IMG/VR virus record: IMGVR_UViG_3300001849_000310
Coordinates: 1 to 20,333 of that record
DNA length: 20,333 nt
Strand: one strand, 5' to 3'
Source of the DNA: a virus
In this document: positions 4,877 through 20,333 of the stretch, piece by piece
Layout of the letters: each line of letters opens with the position of its first letter
Position numbering within the stretch: the first letter of the stretch is position 1
The notes under the pieces: model-generated
What the model was told of the DNA's origin: nothing
Databases searched by the model: none
The model's input: the letters and a program-made list of their open reading frames with translations, nothing else
Translations under genes and position numbers: made by a program

Positions 4877-5950
4877 ATGACAAAGATAGCTGTTATTTGC
4901 GATTCGCACTGGGGCGTTCGAGGGGACAATGTTCATTTCCTTGATATGAACAAAAGATTTCTAGAAAACGTCTTTTTTCCAACTATTGATGAACAACGTA
5001 TCAAGTGTGTGTTACACTTAGGTGATGTGGTTGATAAAAGAAAACAAATTAGTTTCCAAACAGCTAATTGTCTACGTAAAGATTTCCTAGAACCTCTTGC
5101 AGATAGAGGTGTTAGAACAATTGTAACTGTTGGTAATCACGATTGTTTTTATAAAAACACGAACAAAATCAATGCGTTGACCGAATTGGTTCAAGATAAG
5201 TACACGAATTTTGAAGTTTTGATCGATCCGACCGAAATGGAATTGTATAATCAAAAGATTCTTATGCTTCCTTGGATTTGTCAAGAGAATCAAGAAAACT
5301 CTATGCGTATGATAAACGAAACGAATGCTTCGATTTGCTTAGGTCATCTAGAAATCGAAGGGTTTGAAATGTACAAAGGATTAGTTAACGAACATGGGAA
5401 AAGTAGGCAACTTTTTGATAAATTTCATATGGTGTTGTCTGGTCACTATCACCATGTTTCTTCTGATGGAAGTATTAATTATCTGGGTTCTCACGGTGAG
5501 TTTACTTGGTCTGATTATAACGACCCTCGTGGTTTTCACATCTTGGATTTACAAAAAAAGGATTTGACGTTTTGTCAAAACCCTTATACTATGTTCTCTA
5601 AGATCTGGTACGATGATAATGGAAAAGAATTGAAAGACCTACTTGCTACAGATTTTTCTCTTTACCAAAACAAAATAGTTAAGTTGATTGTTCAGAACAA
5701 AACAAATCCTTATTGGTTTGACAGATTTTGTGAAAAGCTAGAATCAACTGGGTTGATCAACTTACAAATTGTTGAAGATCATCTTAATTTGAACGTAGAA
5801 AATCCAGAAGATATTGTAGACGAAGCCCAATCAACGATTGATATCTTTAGAAAACATATAAGTCAGATTTCGGATTTTGATGATAACAATCGTTCTAAAC
5901 TCGAAACCTTGATTGTAGAACTGTATAATAATGCTATAACAGTGGAATAA
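4877..5950 (+). CDS. 47: Recombination endonuclease subunit gp47 (Mre11/SbcD-like)
   Basis: 357 aa (T4 gp47: 339). With gp46 it forms the phage Mre11-Rad50 complex that resects double-strand ends for recombination-dependent replication. Calcineurin-type metallophosphatase motifs are in order: CDSHWG 8-13, LGDVVDKR 48-55, GNHD 86-89, GHLE 156-159, and GHYHH 189-193, the last giving metal ligands. The segment CLGHLEIEGFEMYKG parallels T4 CVGHWELNGFYFYKG, and NDPRGFHILD parallels NDPRGFWMFD. The C-terminal 130 residues are acidic and helical, fitting the gp46-binding part. ATG is preceded by no clear ribosome binding site. It is 3 nt from gene 46, so the two subunits are made together. Confidence 0.95.
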   Translation: MTKIAVICDSHWGVRGDNVHFLDMNKRFLENVFFPTIDEQRIKCVLHLGDVVDKRKQISFQTANCLRKDFLEPLADRGVRTIVTVGNHDCFYKNTNKINALTELVQDKYTNFEVLIDPTEMELYNQKILMLPWICQENQENSMRMINETNASICLGHLEIEGFEMYKGLVNEHGKSRQLFDKFHMVLSGHYHHVSSDGSINYLGSHGEFTWSDYNDPRGFHILDLQKKDLTFCQNPYTMFSKIWYDDNGKELKDLLATDFSLYQNKIVKLIVQNKTNPYWFDRFCEKLESTGLINLQIVEDHLNLNVENPEDIVDEAQSTIDIFRKHISQISDFDDNNRSKLETLIVELYNNAITVE

Positions 5951-9151: not shown

Positions 9152-10522
9152 ATGGTTAACATTATCGTTGCAAAAGAAAAACACGACTGTCAACACTTAT
9201 TAGGTAACTATCTAGATAGCAGTCATTATGATGTGTTGGTTGAATCCGATACAGATTGTTATATGCCACCAATGTGTAGTGTTGCAGAAAAGGCTAATTG
9301 CGAATCTGATTGCGCTCGTTGTTTTAAAGGTAGCGACGAGTTACGTATCGCTTTCAAGTTTCGTAAAAACTACTTCACCGAAAAAGAATGCGATCTAGCG
9401 TATCAGGGTTTGCGAGGTGCTGCGACCGAAAGCCAAAATCGAGGTTTAGCAGCAGGTCCACGTGGTGAATCTTTATCTACTGATGGTAGAGGAGGTAGGG
9501 ATTGGGTTACTCAATATCAGGAAGAGATTCTAGAATACCTACTAGACGATAATAACACTCTCTTTCAAGACGTTTCGATTGCTAGTATTCGTCAGAAATA
9601 TTTGGGCAAACCAAATAGCGAAGAAGGTGATACCAGAGGTCGAGTTTGGCTAAGGTCTCAAGTTTGTAAAGTGTATCCTGAATATCACGGGTGGTTTGAT
9701 AAATGGGTTGATGGTCTTGGTAACAAACCTAAAGAAATGCAAACAGAAGAAGCTAGGGAAATTGCCGAACATTGGGTTTCTACTACTAATTATGCTAAGT
9801 CTGTCTATTCAGGCGTTGCTGGATGGTACGATCGATACCCTAGAATTCCATATGGAAGAGCTACAGCTTATACTGAACAAAATCCAGACTTGTTCTCTTT
9901 ATCTTATCCATTCCTTCAATCATTGAACCGTGGATTTAGAGACCTTCTTCCTTGGCGATGGAATAATCAAAAACAAGCGGCTGATAAACTTGATCCTAGA
10001 TTCCTAGTTCCAGGAACTGTCTTCACTACAATCACAGTGAACAAAACTTTCCGTACAGCCGCCCATTTCGATGCTGGAGACTTACACGAAGGTTTGAGTA
10101 ATCTTCTAGTTCTCGGAACGGGTGATTATACAGGTGGTTACCTAGTGTTTCCTGAATATCGAGTAGCTGTTAACGTACGACCAGGAGATCTGTTGTTAGT
10201 TAACAATCACGAAGTGTTACACGGTAACACTCCAATCGTATTGAATCGACCAGACGATCCCTCGTGTGAACGTCTATCTATTGTTTGTTACTTTAGAGAA
10301 AAGATGTTGGAACTAAAATCTTATGATTATGAGGTTTTACGCCGTCAATACGTCGAAGAACGTAGAAAGAACAAGAATCATACGCTTTGGCGTCCATTGT
10401 GGAACGGAGTTTCACCAGGGATGTGGGACGATCAAGAATGGTATGACTATATGAAAACACATAACATTCAAAACCCATACGAGAAAGAACAGTTCGCGAC
10501 GTTGGAATCTTTGTTCGAATAA
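9152..10522 (+). CDS. TET/JBP-like 2-oxoglutarate Fe(II) dioxygenase
   Basis: 456 aa. TET/JBP enzymes hydroxylate the methyl group of 5-methylcytosine or thymine in DNA. The double-stranded beta-helix core is at about 285-385: FTTITVNKTFRTAAHFDAGD carries the HxD iron ligands H305 and D307 (written with short context AAHFDAGD), then a Gly-rich GLSNLLVLG.GDYTGGYLVFPE, NVRPGDLLLVNNHEVLHGN with distal H357, and R374 in ERLSIVCYFRE, the probable 2-oxoglutarate contact. The H-x-D...LVFPEY...GDLLL..HEV.HGN layout is typical of this family rather than of AlkB. An N-terminal cluster of C36, C42, C50, C54 and C57 may bind zinc. SD: AGGAGA before ATG 9152. A TET-associated-type glycosyltransferase is next, the pairing described for phage base-modification systems. 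Substrate base unknown. Confidence 0.82.
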   Translation: MVNIIVAKEKHDCQHLLGNYLDSSHYDVLVESDTDCYMPPMCSVAEKANCESDCARCFKGSDELRIAFKFRKNYFTEKECDLAYQGLRGAATESQNRGLAAGPRGESLSTDGRGGRDWVTQYQEEILEYLLDDNNTLFQDVSIASIRQKYLGKPNSEEGDTRGRVWLRSQVCKVYPEYHGWFDKWVDGLGNKPKEMQTEEAREIAEHWVSTTNYAKSVYSGVAGWYDRYPRIPYGRATAYTEQNPDLFSLSYPFLQSLNRGFRDLLPWRWNNQKQAADKLDPRFLVPGTVFTTITVNKTFRTAAHFDAGDLHEGLSNLLVLGTGDYTGGYLVFPEYRVAVNVRPGDLLLVNNHEVLHGNTPIVLNRPDDPSCERLSIVCYFREKMLELKSYDYEVLRRQYVEERRKNKNHTLWRPLWNGVSPGMWDDQEWYDYMKTHNIQNPYEKEQFATLESLFE

Positions 10523-11878: not shown

Positions 11879-11904
11879 CTCTATTGCTAGAAGGAACAAC
11901 AGCT

Positions 11905-12354
11905 ATGACTATATATCACAACCACCATTTATTTCCAAAGCATGCTGGTGGCACAGACGATCCAAGCAACATCATCAGAGTCTCTATAAAAGAGCACGCC
12001 GAATTTCATTACGAAAGATGGGTGCTCTTAGGCGAACAATACGACAAAATTGCCTGGAGAATGTTATCCGGGCAAATCTCTGTCGCCCAAGCTATTAAAG
12101 AAAAACAAATAGAAAGCGGTAGGAAAGCCGGGCTTCTTGGAAAGGGTAAGCCCAAATCTTTAGAGCATAACCGTAAAAACGCCGCAGCTCAAATCGGGAA
12201 CGATTATTCGAAAAACAAAAGATGGATGAACAAGGATGGAAAACATACAAGAGTTTCTTACGAATACGTTCATCAATATCTAGATTCCGGTTGGAATGAA
12301 GGTAGATTATTAACAAGAGACCCTTCGGGTCGTTTTAAAGGAATGAATACATAA
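11905..12354 (+). CDS. HNH homing endonuclease
   Basis: 149 aa from ATG 11905; AAGGA at 11891-11895 lies 9 nt upstream. TTG at 11884 is in frame but precedes the binding site. The N-terminus has an HNH-type fold: HNHHLFPKHAGG (H7, H8, H13), DDPSNI with N22, then SIKEHAEFHYERW with H31 and H35, as in phage His-Me finger nucleases. The C-terminal half is basic, with GKGKPKSLEHNRKN and the motif RWMNKDGKHTRVS ... HQYLDSGWNEGR, a helical DNA-binding module common at the end of phage HNH homing enzymes. The stop overlaps the downstream glycosyltransferase ATG (TAATG), so insertion left translation of that gene intact. It has a late promoter with structured leader. The target site is probably nearby, at the junctions of the insert. 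Confidence 0.85.
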   Translation: MTIYHNHHLFPKHAGGTDDPSNIIRVSIKEHAEFHYERWVLLGEQYDKIAWRMLSGQISVAQAIKEKQIESGRKAGLLGKGKPKSLEHNRKNAAAQIGNDYSKNKRWMNKDGKHTRVSYEYVHQYLDSGWNEGRLLTRDPSGRFKGMNT

Positions 12355-13970: not shown

Positions 13971-14546
13971 TTAATTAAGACTTTTATTTTTTCTACGAGT
14001 TTTTTCCCTCAAACGGTAAAAATCCGGATATTTTGGATTATCCAATCGTTTTCTTACGTCGATTCCTTTGTGATGTTCTTGGGCTTCGCCGATCGAATTG
14101 TAAATTTTGCCTAGACAAACAACAGGACAACGATTGGACTCTATCATTTTTTCTTTTGCTTCTAAAAGATATTTCGTTGTGTCAGTTCTTATTCTGCCAA
14201 ACATAGGATTTTTTGAACCAGATAAGTCCCTTTTTGACATACCGATTTTGTAGTTAATCGATTCTGATGTGTCGCCACCGTCTCCGCCTTTAGTCATGTT
14301 ATATTCTGGTGATAATTTTGAAATCCAAAATTTTTCACGTTCATCAATAGAATTTTTAACTTCTTCTAGAATCGAAACAACGAAATTTTCGATTCCGTGT
14401 TTCCTCATAGCAGAGTAAAGATGCGTTTTACCGCTTTTGTGGTTGTATATGTGACGTTGAAATCGTTCTTCAACAGATTTCGTTGTTTTACCTATATAAA
14501 ATTTTCCGTTGACTTTATTTGTGATTTGATATATAATCTTAGGCAT
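13971..14546 (-). CDS. GIY-YIG homing endonuclease, leftward
   Basis: 191 aa, the only leftward gene among the replication genes. N-terminal nuclease: IYQITNKVNGKFYIGKTT at about 5-22 with the variant IYQ...YIG, then S-V-E-E-R-F with catalytic Arg28, RKHGIENF at about 49-56, and YNMTKGGDGGD at about 82-92, the usual end of this domain in phage enzymes. A NUMOD3-like segment (GSKNPMFGR) follows, then CLGKIYNSIGEAQEHH...VRKRL, a NUMOD1/IENR1-like helix-turn-helix. It sits exactly between 45 and 44, genes that are adjacent in T4. Its own late promoter and leader hairpin lie just upstream, within the leader region of gene 44. AGAGGT lies 4 nt before ATG. Low expression, antisense to the operon, is expected. 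Confidence 0.9.
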   Translation of the reverse strand: MPKIIYQITNKVNGKFYIGKTTKSVEERFQRHIYNHKSGKTHLYSAMRKHGIENFVVSILEEVKNSIDEREKFWISKLSPEYNMTKGGDGGDTSESINYKIGMSKRDLSGSKNPMFGRIRTDTTKYLLEAKEKMIESNRCPVVCLGKIYNSIGEAQEHHKGIDVRKRLDNPKYPDFYRLREKTRRKNKSLN

Positions 14547-17890: not shown

Positions 17891-17920
17891 AACTTTTTAC
17901 GAGAGTACATTTTCTTACTC

Positions 17921-18451
17921 TCAACAACCCTTTTTGAGAATAAGGGTGTGCGTAGTATTCGCGCTATCGGATTGCGCTTTTTTATCTTTCGCATTTAGTT
18001 TTCTCCAATGTTCTACGAACCTGTTATATAAACCTATTTCTCTACCGTAAGCTTCAATCTCCCAAGGGAGATCCCAATAATCGGTACCGTTTTCATCAAA
18101 CGGTTTACCCAACCATTTAATGTCGTAAGGTCCTCTTAACATATCCCTAATTTCGCCTTTGGCGTACTGTTTAACGTGTACCATTTCGTGCGCCAAAGAC
18201 GAAAGCGTAGACTTAACACCTAAATCATAGTCTAATTCTATACAAAATTCTCTAGGTTTGTAATTATCGTCTTCCCATATGCATTGAGCGTCGATTTTAC
18301 GATCTTTACGTAAACCTTTAACAAATTTAACTTTTATAACAATTGATTTAGATAATCTTTTAGAGAGCAACTTATCAGCATAAAAGATAAGAGCGCAAAA
18401 GACTCGATTAGTGTTAATCGAGTCCGGAGCGTTAATTAATGTTACTTCCAT
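17921..18451 (-). CDS. SprT-like zinc metallopeptidase-fold protein
   Basis: 176 aa. The HExxH motif is AHEMVHVKQYAKGE at about 87-100 with H88, E89 and H92, after a hydrophobic helix STLSSL; the third ligand may be in PWEIEAYGRE at about 136-145. This layout (HEMVH..Q, W-E-x-E-A) is typical of SprT/minigluzincin-like domains seen in T4-like cyanophages. Members may cleave DNA-bound proteins or act as structural zinc domains; activity here is untested. The N-terminus (about 1-60) is a beta-rich segment with FVKGLRKDR. No signal peptide, so cytoplasmic. It is the last gene of the leftward cluster, 6 nt after the previous stop, with AAGG before the ATG, and converges on the terminator at 17851-17890. 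Confidence 0.7.
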   Translation of the reverse strand: MEVTLINAPDSINTNRVFCALIFYADKLLSKRLSKSIVIKVKFVKGLRKDRKIDAQCIWEDDNYKPREFCIELDYDLGVKSTLSSLAHEMVHVKQYAKGEIRDMLRGPYDIKWLGKPFDENGTDYWDLPWEIEAYGREIGLYNRFVEHWRKLNAKDKKAQSDSANTTHTLILKKGC

Positions 18452-18457
18452 ACAACC

Positions 18458-18751
18458 TTACGTAGTCATTACAGCTTCCTTATATTTAGCCAGAAAAGCC
18501 TCTAGGCTCTTCTTAGCCTCTTCATCGGTGGACTTATCCAAGAAAGACTTAGCCATCCGATCGGCAGGATCCTTAATCTCAAACGTGTCCTGAAGAGGAA
18601 TGGTAGCCATCGCCTCAGCAAAACTGTTGAAGTAGCGATCGTCACGGAGATGTTTGGAAACAACGTCCATAACCATAAAATTGCCCGGAACGACCTCGGA
18701 CTCTACGATCTGCCAACGATTGCAGTACACGCTCGACTTGTATTGATTCAT
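18458..18751 (-). CDS. Hypothetical protein
   Basis: 97 aa, not recognised. It opens NQYKSSVYCNRWQIVESEVVPGNFMV, short beta-like strands, then a helical acidic/basic half (NSFAEAMATIPL..., ADRMAKSFLDKSTDEEAKKSLEAFLAKYKEAV). The ATG overlaps the stop of the upstream gene (ATGA), so it is translated as part of the leftward cluster. No metal motif or membrane segment. Codons are more GC-rich than in the replication genes. Confidence 0.7.
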   Translation of the reverse strand: MNQYKSSVYCNRWQIVESEVVPGNFMVMDVVSKHLRDDRYFNSFAEAMATIPLQDTFEIKDPADRMAKSFLDKSTDEEAKKSLEAFLAKYKEAVMTT

Positions 18752-18933
18752 ACGCCGATACCCTTCTTAGCCAGAGCTTCTAGAATTACCTCTTTACGTT
18801 CTTTACGAACGTTTGGTGAGCTCAACTCCTTGAGTAGAGAATCAACAACGTCTGAATCATCCCAATTTGGAGGAAGATCCGGTAACTTGATTTTTTTATA
18901 TGCCATACAGAAAAGAGATTGGTGATTACTCAC
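18748..18933 (-). CDS. Small hypothetical protein
   Basis: 61 aa from GTG at 18933, or 52 aa from ATG at 18906. GTG is favoured because AGGAGGT (plus 18939-18945) lies 5 nt upstream; the ATG has no visible site. The GTG start lies 8 nt inside the upstream gene. The body MAYKKIKLPDLPPNWDDSDV is followed by a helix with LLKELSSPNVRKERKEVILEALAKKG. Acidic WDDSD and the basic helix suggest a small interaction protein, but no family is recognised. Confidence 0.6.
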   Translation of the reverse strand: MSNHQSLFCMAYKKIKLPDLPPNWDDSDVVDSLLKELSSPNVRKERKEVILEALAKKGIGV

Positions 18934-19465
18934 CAACCACCTCCTCCGCAACCTCAGCCTTCGCCGCCTTAACGCAAGGCGGTTCGTCGTAGAAGAACAT
19001 CCACATATGACGTTCCTCGTTGAAGAACGGTTCGGTGATATTCGTCGCGCCGTAACGCTCGAACACCTTGATCAATTGACCAGCGCCGACGCGCGTAAGA
19101 GCGGTCGCGGCGACGTTAGTATCCGTCTTATCGGACATAGAACCGTTGCTCGTACGATCCTCGTCAACAGCGCGACGAGACATCAACTCGGCGACGGCGG
19201 TGCGCTTCGCCTTCGGAGCCTTAGCTTCCTTCGGAGCCTTGGGTTCCTTCGGAGCCTTGGGCTCAGCTGCAGCGCGCGGAGCCTTAGCCGGAGCGTCGAA
19301 ACCGTCAGGCAGTTTGCCGCTAGTGAACGTCCAACGGTAATAACCCTTACCGTCGCCGCCGATAGCCTCGTCGATCATTGCGATGACCTCGTCACGGGTC
19401 TTGGAGTTATGGTTGGCAGTGACGATGTCGATAGCGATTTCGCGCTTAGAACGCTTCTCAGTCAT
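18926..19465 (-). CDS. Lysine/alanine/proline-rich hypothetical protein
   Basis: 179 aa, clearly more GC-rich than the replication genes. Three parts: an N-terminal domain (about 1-55) with KREIAIDIVTANHNSKTRDEVIAMI and GKGYYRWTFTSGKLP; a flexible linker (about 60-90) of PKAPKE-type repeats, encoded by three 18-nt tandem units; and a C-terminal domain (about 95-165) with TALTRVGAGQLIKVFERYG and HMWMFFYDEPP, then an acidic tail (EVAEEVVGE). The basic linker resembles histone-H1-like or nucleoid-binding tails, so DNA binding is possible. First gene of the leftward cluster, with AAGGG before ATG. Not assigned to a family. Confidence 0.75.
   Translation of the reverse strand: MTEKRSKREIAIDIVTANHNSKTRDEVIAMIDEAIGGDGKGYYRWTFTSGKLPDGFDAPAKAPRAAAEPKAPKEPKAPKEAKAPKAKRTAVAELMSRRAVDEDRTSNGSMSDKTDTNVAATALTRVGAGQLIKVFERYGATNITEPFFNEERHMWMFFYDEPPCVKAAKAEVAEEVVGE
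19210..19263. repeat. Three 18-nt tandem repeats in the PKAPKE linker
   Basis: Units CCTTCGGAGCCTTAGCTT, CCTTCGGAGCCTTGGGTT and CCTTCGGAGCCTTGGGCT occupy 19210-19227, 19228-19245 and 19246-19263. They encode the repeated K-A-P-K-E/P linker on the minus strand. Slippage could change linker length. Confidence 0.85.
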
Positions 19466-19524
19466 ATTTTACACCCTTTCGTTATATCGTAAACTTACCC
19501 GATTACTGAAAAAAAGCAAGGAGG

Positions 19525-19549
19525 AAAATCCGGTTTTTCGGATTTTTTT
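19525..19549. terminator. Intergenic terminator hairpin
   Basis: AAAATCCG (19525-19532), loop GTTTTT, CGGATTTT (19539-19546), with T continuing to 19549. It lies between the small leftward gene (stop at 19548-19550) and the PKAPKE gene. The U tract is best on the plus strand; on the minus strand only TTTT belongs to the stem, so leftward termination would be weak. Confidence 0.7.
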
Positions 19550-19691
19550 ACCCGAAAAACACGACAGCCGCGATCCCGGCAGCGGCGAACAAAATGGCTT
19601 CCGGGAGGAACTCGAGAACCACGGTCCAAACCAGTTTGCCGTGCAGAGCGCCCAACCGAGAATTCATATCAGCTTTTCCCTCGTTCATCAT
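19548..19691 (-). CDS. Small single-pass membrane protein, 39-47 aa
   Basis: 47 aa from the first ATG (19691), 46 from the adjacent ATG (19688) or 39 from ATG 19667. The C-terminal half LVWTVVLEFLPEAILFAAAG followed by IAAVVFFG is a predicted transmembrane helix interrupted by E-F-L-P-E, and the N-terminus is charged. A mirrored promoter lies just upstream (-10 at 19698-19703), so ATG 19691 would be almost leaderless. GAGGG (codons 4-5) lies 10 nt before ATG 19667. The rightward hexapeptide gene has the same plan: an ATG near the transcript start, then GAGG and GATATG, so 19667 may be the true start. Holin-like or other small phage membrane roles are possible; none is claimed. Confidence 0.5.
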   Translation of the reverse strand: MMNEGKADMNSRLGALHGKLVWTVVLEFLPEAILFAAAGIAAVVFFG

Positions 19692-19697
19692 ATTCAG

Positions 19698-19726
19698 AGT
19701 ATGCCTGAATTTCCGTAAAAAGTCAA
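19698..19726 (-). promoter_or_regulatory. Leftward sigma70-type promoter (mirrored pair, left member)
   Basis: Minus strand: TTGACT (plus 19721-19726), 17 bp, CATACT (plus 19698-19703). It is nearly the mirror image of the rightward promoter at 20131-20159; both have TTGACTTTTT and TTCAGGCATACT-like ends (left: AATTCAGGCATACT; right: GTTTCAGGCATACT). Confidence 0.75.
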
Positions 19727-20130
19727 TCCACGTAAAATCAATGACTTAGCCGATGCAGCCGTCTAACCTATTGAAATCGCTAAATTTTATTTTTCCTGGG
19801 TCGTAGGGTTTTTTATAAAAAAATTCAAAATGTAAGAATTTCAATGGATTACCGATTTTGAGCGGTTTTGAGTGGGTTAGGGCGTAACAATACCCGTTTG
19901 CGATCATCTAACCGATCCACAGACGACGAAATTCGGCTAAGTCATTGAAATCGCTAGATTTTCTTAAAAACCGAAAGGTGAGTAAAATCAATGACTTAGC
20001 TATTTCCTTATCGGCAAAATCTCCGGGTCAAACCCTAGCTGAAAATTTTTCTAAAATAGTCGATTTTTTTTATATAAGGATTTCAATCGGTTAGATGGAA
20101 ACCTCACCTAAGTCATTGATTTATAAGGGA
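19727..20130. repeat. Noncoding region with mirrored operator-like repeats
   Basis: 404 bp with no convincing gene, AT-rich. Repeat A (TCAATGACTTAG or its complement) occurs four times, at 19738-19749, 19937-19948 (inverted), 19988-19999 and 20108-20119 (inverted). GTAAAATCAATGACTTAGC is identical at 19732-19750 and 19982-20000. Repeat B (TCTAACC-(T/G)-ATTGAAATC) is at 19762-19778 and, inverted, at 20079-20095; shorter relatives are at 19907-19916 (TCTAACCGAT), 19944-19962 (ATTGAAATCGCTAGATTTT, also near-identical at 19770-19788) and 19836-19850. Outer A and B are 12 nt apart on both sides, and 11 nt separate each outer A from its -35. Candidates: operators for a phage regulator, or an origin. 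Confidence 0.8.
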
Positions 20131-20159
20131 TTGACTTTTTTCTAGGTTTCAGGCATACT
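20131..20159 (+). promoter_or_regulatory. Rightward sigma70-type promoter (mirrored pair, right member)
   Basis: TTGACT (20131-20136), 17-bp spacer, CATACT (20154-20159). Transcription would start near 20166, so the first ATG (20169) is almost leaderless; the second ATG 20187 has GAGG (20178-20181) 5 nt upstream. Confidence 0.75.
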
Positions 20160-20186
20160 GACAATACGATGAACGTTGAGGTTGAT

Positions 20187-20333
20187 ATGACGGTTTTTGA
20201 TTTCGGCTCTGGTCCGGTGCCGGCTCATCGCCACTCTGATGGCGGCGGCTGGGTCGCCGATACGGCTATGGTCGCCGATACCGCTTACGTAAGTCCGAAC
20301 GCTAAGGTGTTCGGTAACGCTCGGGTGTTCGGT
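20187..20333 (+). CDS. Hexapeptide-repeat (left-handed beta-helix) protein, N-terminal part
   Basis: Partial, open at the right edge; 49 codons from ATG 20187. It begins MTVFDFGSGPVPAHRHSDGG, then GWVADTAMVADTAYVSPNAKVFGNARVFG, listed here only as its units: VADTAM, VADTAY, VSPNAK, VFGNAR. These are hexapeptide repeats typical of left-handed beta-helices, seen in phage proteins with this D-x-G-S/T-GPVPAHRH leader. The helix may be a structural fibre or an acyltransferase-like fold; the full length is not visible. ATG 20169 is in frame, but GAGG is 5 nt before 20187 and the family normally starts at this point. Driven by the mirrored promoter at 20131. GC-rich codons, unlike the replication genes. 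Confidence 0.75.
   Translation, partial: MTVFDFGSGPVPAHRHSDGGGWVADTAMVADTAYVSPNAKVFGNARVFG

Follow-up and report, generated by a model that had tools for sequence, protein, structure and literature searches.

Mirrored outward promoters with IHF-type sites in a T4-like virus fragment: a probable bidirectional early-promoter hub

Introduction

What kind of element lies between two divergent genes when their promoters, and the repeats upstream of them, are near mirror images of each other? The question is raised by the right-hand end of a virus fragment of 20,333 bp (IMG/VR record IMGVR_UViG_3300001849_000310, positions 1-20,333), the whole of which is hereafter called the window. The fragment carries T4-like replication genes, namely those of a sliding clamp, a clamp loader and UvsW, and among named phages the clamp loader is closest to that of Stenotrophomonas phage DLP6 (58.5% identity). 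Homing-endonuclease-like genes (292-954, 1209-1505, 11884-12354 and 13971-14546) lie among the replication genes, and the classes represented are NUMOD3, T5orf172, a weak homing-endonuclease PHROG and GIY-YIG. A sequence-only reading of the locus had described two mirrored repeats, A and B, and had proposed a phage regulator acting on both genes, a control element or a replication origin. We show here that the region between the two divergent genes is a real, conserved and symmetric element (hereafter the hub), and we examine which protein is likely to bind there.

Results

The mirrored element in the window

The features of the locus are as follows.

19548-19691, minus strand: left gene; 47 aa from the 5'-terminal ATG, 39 aa from the internal in-frame ATG at 19667 (MNSRLGALHGKLVW...)
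19682-19785: left arm of a 104-nt inverted repeat, from the arm comparison
19698-19726, minus strand: left outward promoter TTGACT-17-CATACT, from the sequence; RNA start predicted near 19691
19735-19749, minus strand: outer left IHF-type site CTAAGTCATTGATTT (repeat A), the strand being the one that reads CTAANNNATTGA; repeat A itself at 19738-19749
19763-19777, plus strand: back-to-back partner of the outer left site, CTAACCTATTGAAAT (repeat B); matrix, 22.6 bits
19838-19852, minus strand: weaker inner IHF-type site GTAATCCATTGAAAT; matrix, 11.5 bits
19853-19936: central segment without a strong IHF-type site; partial CTAAC/GTTAG inverted pieces present
19937-19951, plus strand: inner IHF-type site CTAAGTCATTGAAAT; matrix, 20.6 bits
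19985-19999, minus strand: inner IHF-type site CTAAGTCATTGATTT; matrix, 19.7 bits
20072-20175: right arm of the 104-nt inverted repeat, from the arm comparison
20080-20094, minus strand: back-to-back partner of the outer right site, CTAACCGATTGAAAT (repeat B); matrix, 25.4 bits
20108-20122, plus strand: outer right IHF-type site CTAAGTCATTGATTT (repeat A); pattern and matrix; repeat A itself at 20108-20119
20131-20159, plus strand: right outward promoter TTGACT-17-CATACT, from the sequence; RNA start predicted near 20166
20169-20333, plus strand: right gene, open at the window end; ATG near the expected RNA start, internal in-frame ATG at 20187

The layout described in the sequence-only reading was recovered in full. 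Between the -35 boxes of the two outward promoters there are 404 bp. On each side, repeat A is found 11 nt from the -35 (19738-19749 and 20108-20119), and another 12 nt separate it from repeat B, nearer the centre (19762-19778 and 20079-20095). Two further copies of A are present in opposite orientations, at 19937-19948 (+) and 19988-19999 (-), and 19838-19852 holds a weaker relative of the site. Repeat A (CTAAGTCATTGATTT) and repeat B (CTAACC-N-ATTGAAAT), however, turned out to be two variants of a single site, CTAANNNATTGAWWT, and not two separate repeats. Six copies of the CTAANNNATTGAWWT pattern family are present in the window, and every one of them lies in this region; the weaker one at 19838 comes in addition. 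A matrix built without the window's own sites found seven sites in the hub, scoring 9-25 bits; in the other 19.8 kb of the window it found one 12.5-bit site at 5166 and two weak ones, while shuffles give 2.6 per 20 kb.

Comparison of the arms, 19682-19785 and 20072-20175, showed that 78 of 104 positions are identical as an inverted repeat (75%); when the same DNA was shuffled 200 times, the highest count was 51. A blastn search of the region against its own record gave an E value of 1e-16. The symmetry, as had been claimed, is beyond chance. It extends into the 5' ends of the predicted transcripts, which share CAGGCATACT...ATGATGAACG. The central segment of the window showed no significant fold (z 0.2).

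The right gene has a weak match to PHROG families of unknown function. The 179-aa left neighbour of the hub had no match among named phages and one good relative in IMG/VR (contig L008, which stops short of the hub). It is worth noting that around the hub and its left-hand genes (17900-20333) the G+C content climbs from about 36% to about 50%, which may be a sign of recently acquired DNA.

Conservation of the hub in related contigs

Related loci were found via the clamp loader, via a neighbouring gene and by an IMG/VR scan for the back-to-back pair. The same hub was found in about 20 related T4-like contigs, which share outward-pointing promoters of sigma70 type, each with an IHF box 8-10 nt from its -35, as well as the back-to-back pairs and the site-free centre. 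The common plan runs from an outward promoter through an outer site, a partner in the opposite orientation and an inner site to a site-free centre of about 85-105 bp, and from there through 1-3 more sites to the mirrored pair and promoter. The sequence-only reading had named as its own test whether the A and B sites and their spacings are kept in relatives; in these contigs they are. The flanking genes vary from locus to locus. Four long contigs (38-61 kb) carry 2-3 hubs each, about 8-17 kb apart: G041 has hubs at 8.6, 24.7 and 41.8 kb, and G049, G005 and G048 have two each. Nearly all motif matches in these long contigs sit in hubs.

In DLP6 the motif count was 16, against 0 for the reversed control pattern. 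No excess over this control was found in T4, S-PM2, Sf-CH11, Mosig, C48C1 and Melnitz, and the candidate of a universal T4-like motif was rejected on this set, which includes two cyanophages. A blastn search of the hub against named phages returned nothing meaningful. Two other scans were discarded. The first DNA scan (A and B with an 8-16 nt gap) returned four hub-less contigs, three of them at 61-65% G+C, which were taken as chance; for the back-to-back pair pattern in bacterial genome contigs, the matches listed were scattered over unrelated bacteria, as chance predicts.

Some contigs showed other arrangements. Several one-sided promoter units, each an IHF box with the leader ATGATGAGGAATGAGG, follow in succession within 10 kb in L268 and L269. 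Perfect back-to-back pairs such as ATCAATAACTTAG-N12-CTAAGTTATTGAT occur in apparently noncoding DNA of L183, L194, L201 and L236, some of them near promoter-like sequence, and these contigs are possibly other users of paired IHF sites. In L030 (7680-7880), two long near-perfect inverted repeats with stems of about 25 bp lie beside a promoter-like TTGACT...TAATAT.

IHF signature of the sites

The nature of the sites was analyzed on the basis of 107 distinct sites from 21 hubs. Their logo is WWWTCAATNNNTTAG, and the other-strand reading of the site is AWWTCAATNNNTTAG. The consensus of IHF is WATCAANNNNTTR, and flanking A/T elements play a role (PMC10380432). An exact match to WATCAANNNNTTR is present in 73 of the 107 sites, and WWTCAANNNNTTR, with W at the second position, in 104. 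IHF sites carry an A/T tract on one side only, and here a run of A4 or T4 lies upstream, on the 5' side of the core, in 90/107 sites and on the mirror side in 11/107. Since the outer sites run into the promoter, the 74 inner sites were counted separately: 61 have the run upstream and 10 on the mirror side, and the A/T stretch begins sharply at -8, which is where lambda H' has its A6 tract. The tract lies 8-18 bp upstream of the core, as in lambda H'. When the matrix trained on the 107 phage sites was applied to a 451-bp stretch of lambda attP, the three known IHF sites of attP, H2, H1 and H', ranked 1-3 of all placements.

No DNABII (IHF/HU) gene was found in the 21 phage records, which are contig fragments, by a search that scored 9 of 14 control genomes positive, and a phage-encoded IHF/HU was rejected as the binder. 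Since the sites are of IHF type and no phage DNABII gene was found, host IHF appears to be the best candidate; with IHF assumed to be present in the host, it would most likely be the protein that binds these sites. The earlier proposal of a phage regulator acting on both genes was right in part: a control element common to both promoters is very likely, but the IHF-type (DNABII) sites point to host IHF and not to a phage protein.

The logo contains conserved positions beyond the E. coli consensus, namely AA at -4/-3, T at +7 and G at +14. Given these extra bases, a variant in the host, or a different protein with a similar site, could be what binds here.

The window also encodes a 456-aa protein (9152-10522) with a Tet/JBP oxygenase domain. 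Because of this domain, the phage may carry modified DNA; it is a matter of speculation that the minor-groove contact of IHF might tolerate such DNA.

Spacing of the sites and the central dyad

The distances between sites of the same role are discrete across hubs. They fall at 15-16 or 26; at 54-57, 63-66 or 75-77; and at 89-90, 100-101 or 110-111, with further classes at 85, 93-97 or 103-105 and at 35 or 45. Same-role spacings thus differ between hubs by whole helical turns, and the combined statistic peaks at 10.5 bp. A test of helical phase by role, with role classes drawn up once the data had been seen, gave p of about 5e-5, also against a null model that keeps clusters together. When all neighbour distances were pooled by strand pair, the helical phase was not significant (p 0.15-0.45).

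A central dyad was found in some relatives. It is strong in L109 (z -7.1) and L050 (z -4.3), moderate in a few, and below significance in most hubs, the window's included. The candidate of a central hairpin, in RNA or DNA, as a key part of the element was rejected, since it is strong only in L109 and L050 and absent in the window. Because the centre lies upstream of both promoters, the hairpin would not be expected in RNA.

Promoters and the first ATG

In 29 promoter arms, the IHF box ends 8-10 nt before the -35. The hexamers are TTGAC/TATAAA-like and are spaced by 17 bp in 24 of the 29. The promoters are of sigma70 type, with a -35 and a -10 about 17 bp apart and no MotA box in place of the -35. 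The outer box occupies the place of the UP elements in T4 early promoters. The flank expected for IHF at the outer site takes in the -35 itself, and the A/T tract overlaps the -35. Because of this overlap, IHF and RNA polymerase may compete at the outer site; the predicted footprint over the -35 argues against simple activation by the outer site. Inspection by eye revealed no terminator-like stem-loop beside the hub promoters.

The sequence-only reading had placed the first ATG of both transcripts almost at the 5' end, and this holds beyond the window. The first ATG lies exactly six bases past the -10, that is, at about +1, in most hub arms. This ATG shares its frame with an internal start, usually one preceded by an SD sequence, in 23 of 33 arms. 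Both arms of the window show this arrangement (19691-19667 (-) and 20169-20187 (+)). An ATG at about +1 together with an in-frame internal start suggests leaderless or doubly started translation.

Discussion

The site family, its IHF signature, the conserved layout, the helical phasing by role, the link to promoters in the relatives and the failure to detect a phage IHF/HU gene are shown by the comparisons above. We infer from the DNA that IHF occupies the sites, that the promoters are active, that they act early and that both are controlled together. In our judgement the element is probably, at a probability of about 0.72, a bidirectional early-promoter hub organised by host IHF. About seven IHF-type sites are arranged in near mirror image and in helical register. 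IHF dimers bound to them would bend and fold the roughly 400 bp between the outward sigma70-type promoters into a single compact nucleoprotein complex, so that both promoters would be coupled to one structure and set together when infection starts. At the outer sites, competition between IHF and RNA polymerase is possible, as is a handover from the one to the other, and the inner sites would shape the loop. Activation and occlusion by IHF at the promoters are both possible, and the sign of the effect cannot be read from the sequence.

Repression or timing by occlusion alone is an alternative to which we give an appreciable though minor chance. IHF on the outer sites would cover both -35s, and the hub would be a paired off-switch that senses the host IHF level and hence growth phase. 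This would agree with the distance from the box to the -35, fixed at 8-10 nt, and with the expected IHF footprint, which includes the promoter TTGACTTTT. The near-consensus promoters, however, look made for immediate strong use, and occlusion alone would need neither the inner sites nor the helical phasing. A further possibility, which we regard as unlikely, is that the arms represent nothing more than a mobile promoter cassette of which recombination has placed copies in opposite orientations, in the manner of PeSL cassettes, and that they have no joint control. The arms are indeed alike as far as the start codons, promoter-plus-leader units recur throughout L268 and L269, and gene shuffling by PeSL cassettes has been reported for T4-like phages, as cited in PMC4503421. 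A cassette of this kind, however, does not account for inner sites beyond the arms, a site-free centre and helical-step spacings that are conserved among hubs with different flanking genes.

It is rather improbable that the sites serve a phage-encoded or other host DNA-binding protein which shares an IHF-like sequence by chance. The conserved bases beyond the E. coli IHF consensus would fit such a protein, as would the confinement of the sites to some phage groups though IHF-bearing hosts are widespread; the core, the spacing and the one-sided A/T tract all fit IHF, however, and in lambda it is the three IHF sites that the matrix picks out. A replication origin seems very improbable. At such an origin, IHF sites and a central dyad would open the DNA, and the divergent transcripts would prime forks both ways, in an R-loop type of initiation as at T4 origins. 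IHF arrays, A/T-rich stretches, divergent promoters and the central dyad in L109 and L050 are origin-like traits. The presence of 2-3 hubs, about 8-17 kb apart, on contigs of 38-61 kb nevertheless speaks against one dedicated origin; the dyad is not significant in the window or most hubs, and no initiator repeats were recognised at the hub. The earlier choice between control element and origin is thereby narrowed: the control element is very likely, and the origin, with several hubs per contig, lacks specific support.

If the preferred reading of an IHF-organised hub is correct, the hub would be a compact natural test system for several IHF dimers folding DNA between divergent promoters, and the site signature could help to recognise IHF-bearing hosts of uncultured phages. 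A broader proposition is that early transcription in a lytic T4-like lineage is organised around multi-IHF complexes which recur along the genome, in helical phase and back to back between paired promoters; at each of several places, a single nucleoprotein structure made by the host would set both directions at once. We hold this proposition tentatively, at slightly less than even odds.

Comparison with known systems

Phage promoters assisted by IHF are already known. Lambda pL is one of them, and Mu Pe and lambda pL each have one or two IHF sites that serve one promoter. The hub differs from both in its mirrored array of about seven predicted sites and its two outward promoters. In phage Mu, loss of the IHF site lowers transcription from the early promoter Pe (PMC3820752), and the likeness lies in the support of a phage early promoter by host IHF. 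The lambda attP intasome region likewise contains several IHF sites, which agree with those of the hub in their core and in the A/T tract upstream of it. The region serves recombination, however, and has arm and core sites for integrase, none of which were recognised at the hub. As regards a lambda-type attachment site, with its recombinase core and nearby integrase gene, no integrase was found in the subset of window proteins examined.

PeSL cassettes of T4-type phages (Arbiol 2010 and Comeau 2014, cited in PMC4503421) are similar in being recurring early-promoter units around shuffled small genes. They differ in that the promoter is paired with a stem-loop terminator, and the citing text, as far as it deals with them, reports no IHF array or mirror pair (PMC4503421).

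A close likeness is found in DLP6, also a T4-like phage, where the same IHF-type box, AAATCAACGACTTAG, lies upstream of sigma70-like promoters of gene clusters. At the DLP6 loci this element is repeated, usually in tandem 25 bp apart. The DLP6 boxes differ from those of the hub in that all are on one strand, in tandem, in the opposite orientation and at a variable distance to the promoter, with no divergent hub. The DLP6 paper described 25 'phage promoters' found with PHIRE, of which 22 stand in pairs ahead of gene clusters (PMC5349666). To judge from position and pairing, the DLP6 boxes appear to be these published elements, which were presented as promoters and with no mention of IHF (PMC5349666); the hub reading would thus reinterpret them.

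A search of the open literature, as distinct from subscription papers, returned no description of a multi-IHF hub, a symmetric hub or the use of IHF in T4-like phages. The earlier statement that no T4-like element with this plan had been described thus stands for the symmetric hub, but the same boxes, in tandem, were apparently published in DLP6 (PMC5349666). T4 early promoters, built of UP, -35, TGn and -10 elements, are likewise strong, near-consensus promoters of host type, but have a UP element where the window phage has an IHF-type box (PMC2988021). The review of T4 transcription makes no mention of IHF (PMC2988021). In T4 itself, transcription is taken over by means of strong promoters and phage proteins. 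A related lineage that appears to base its early control on a host DNA-bending protein would represent a different solution from that of T4.
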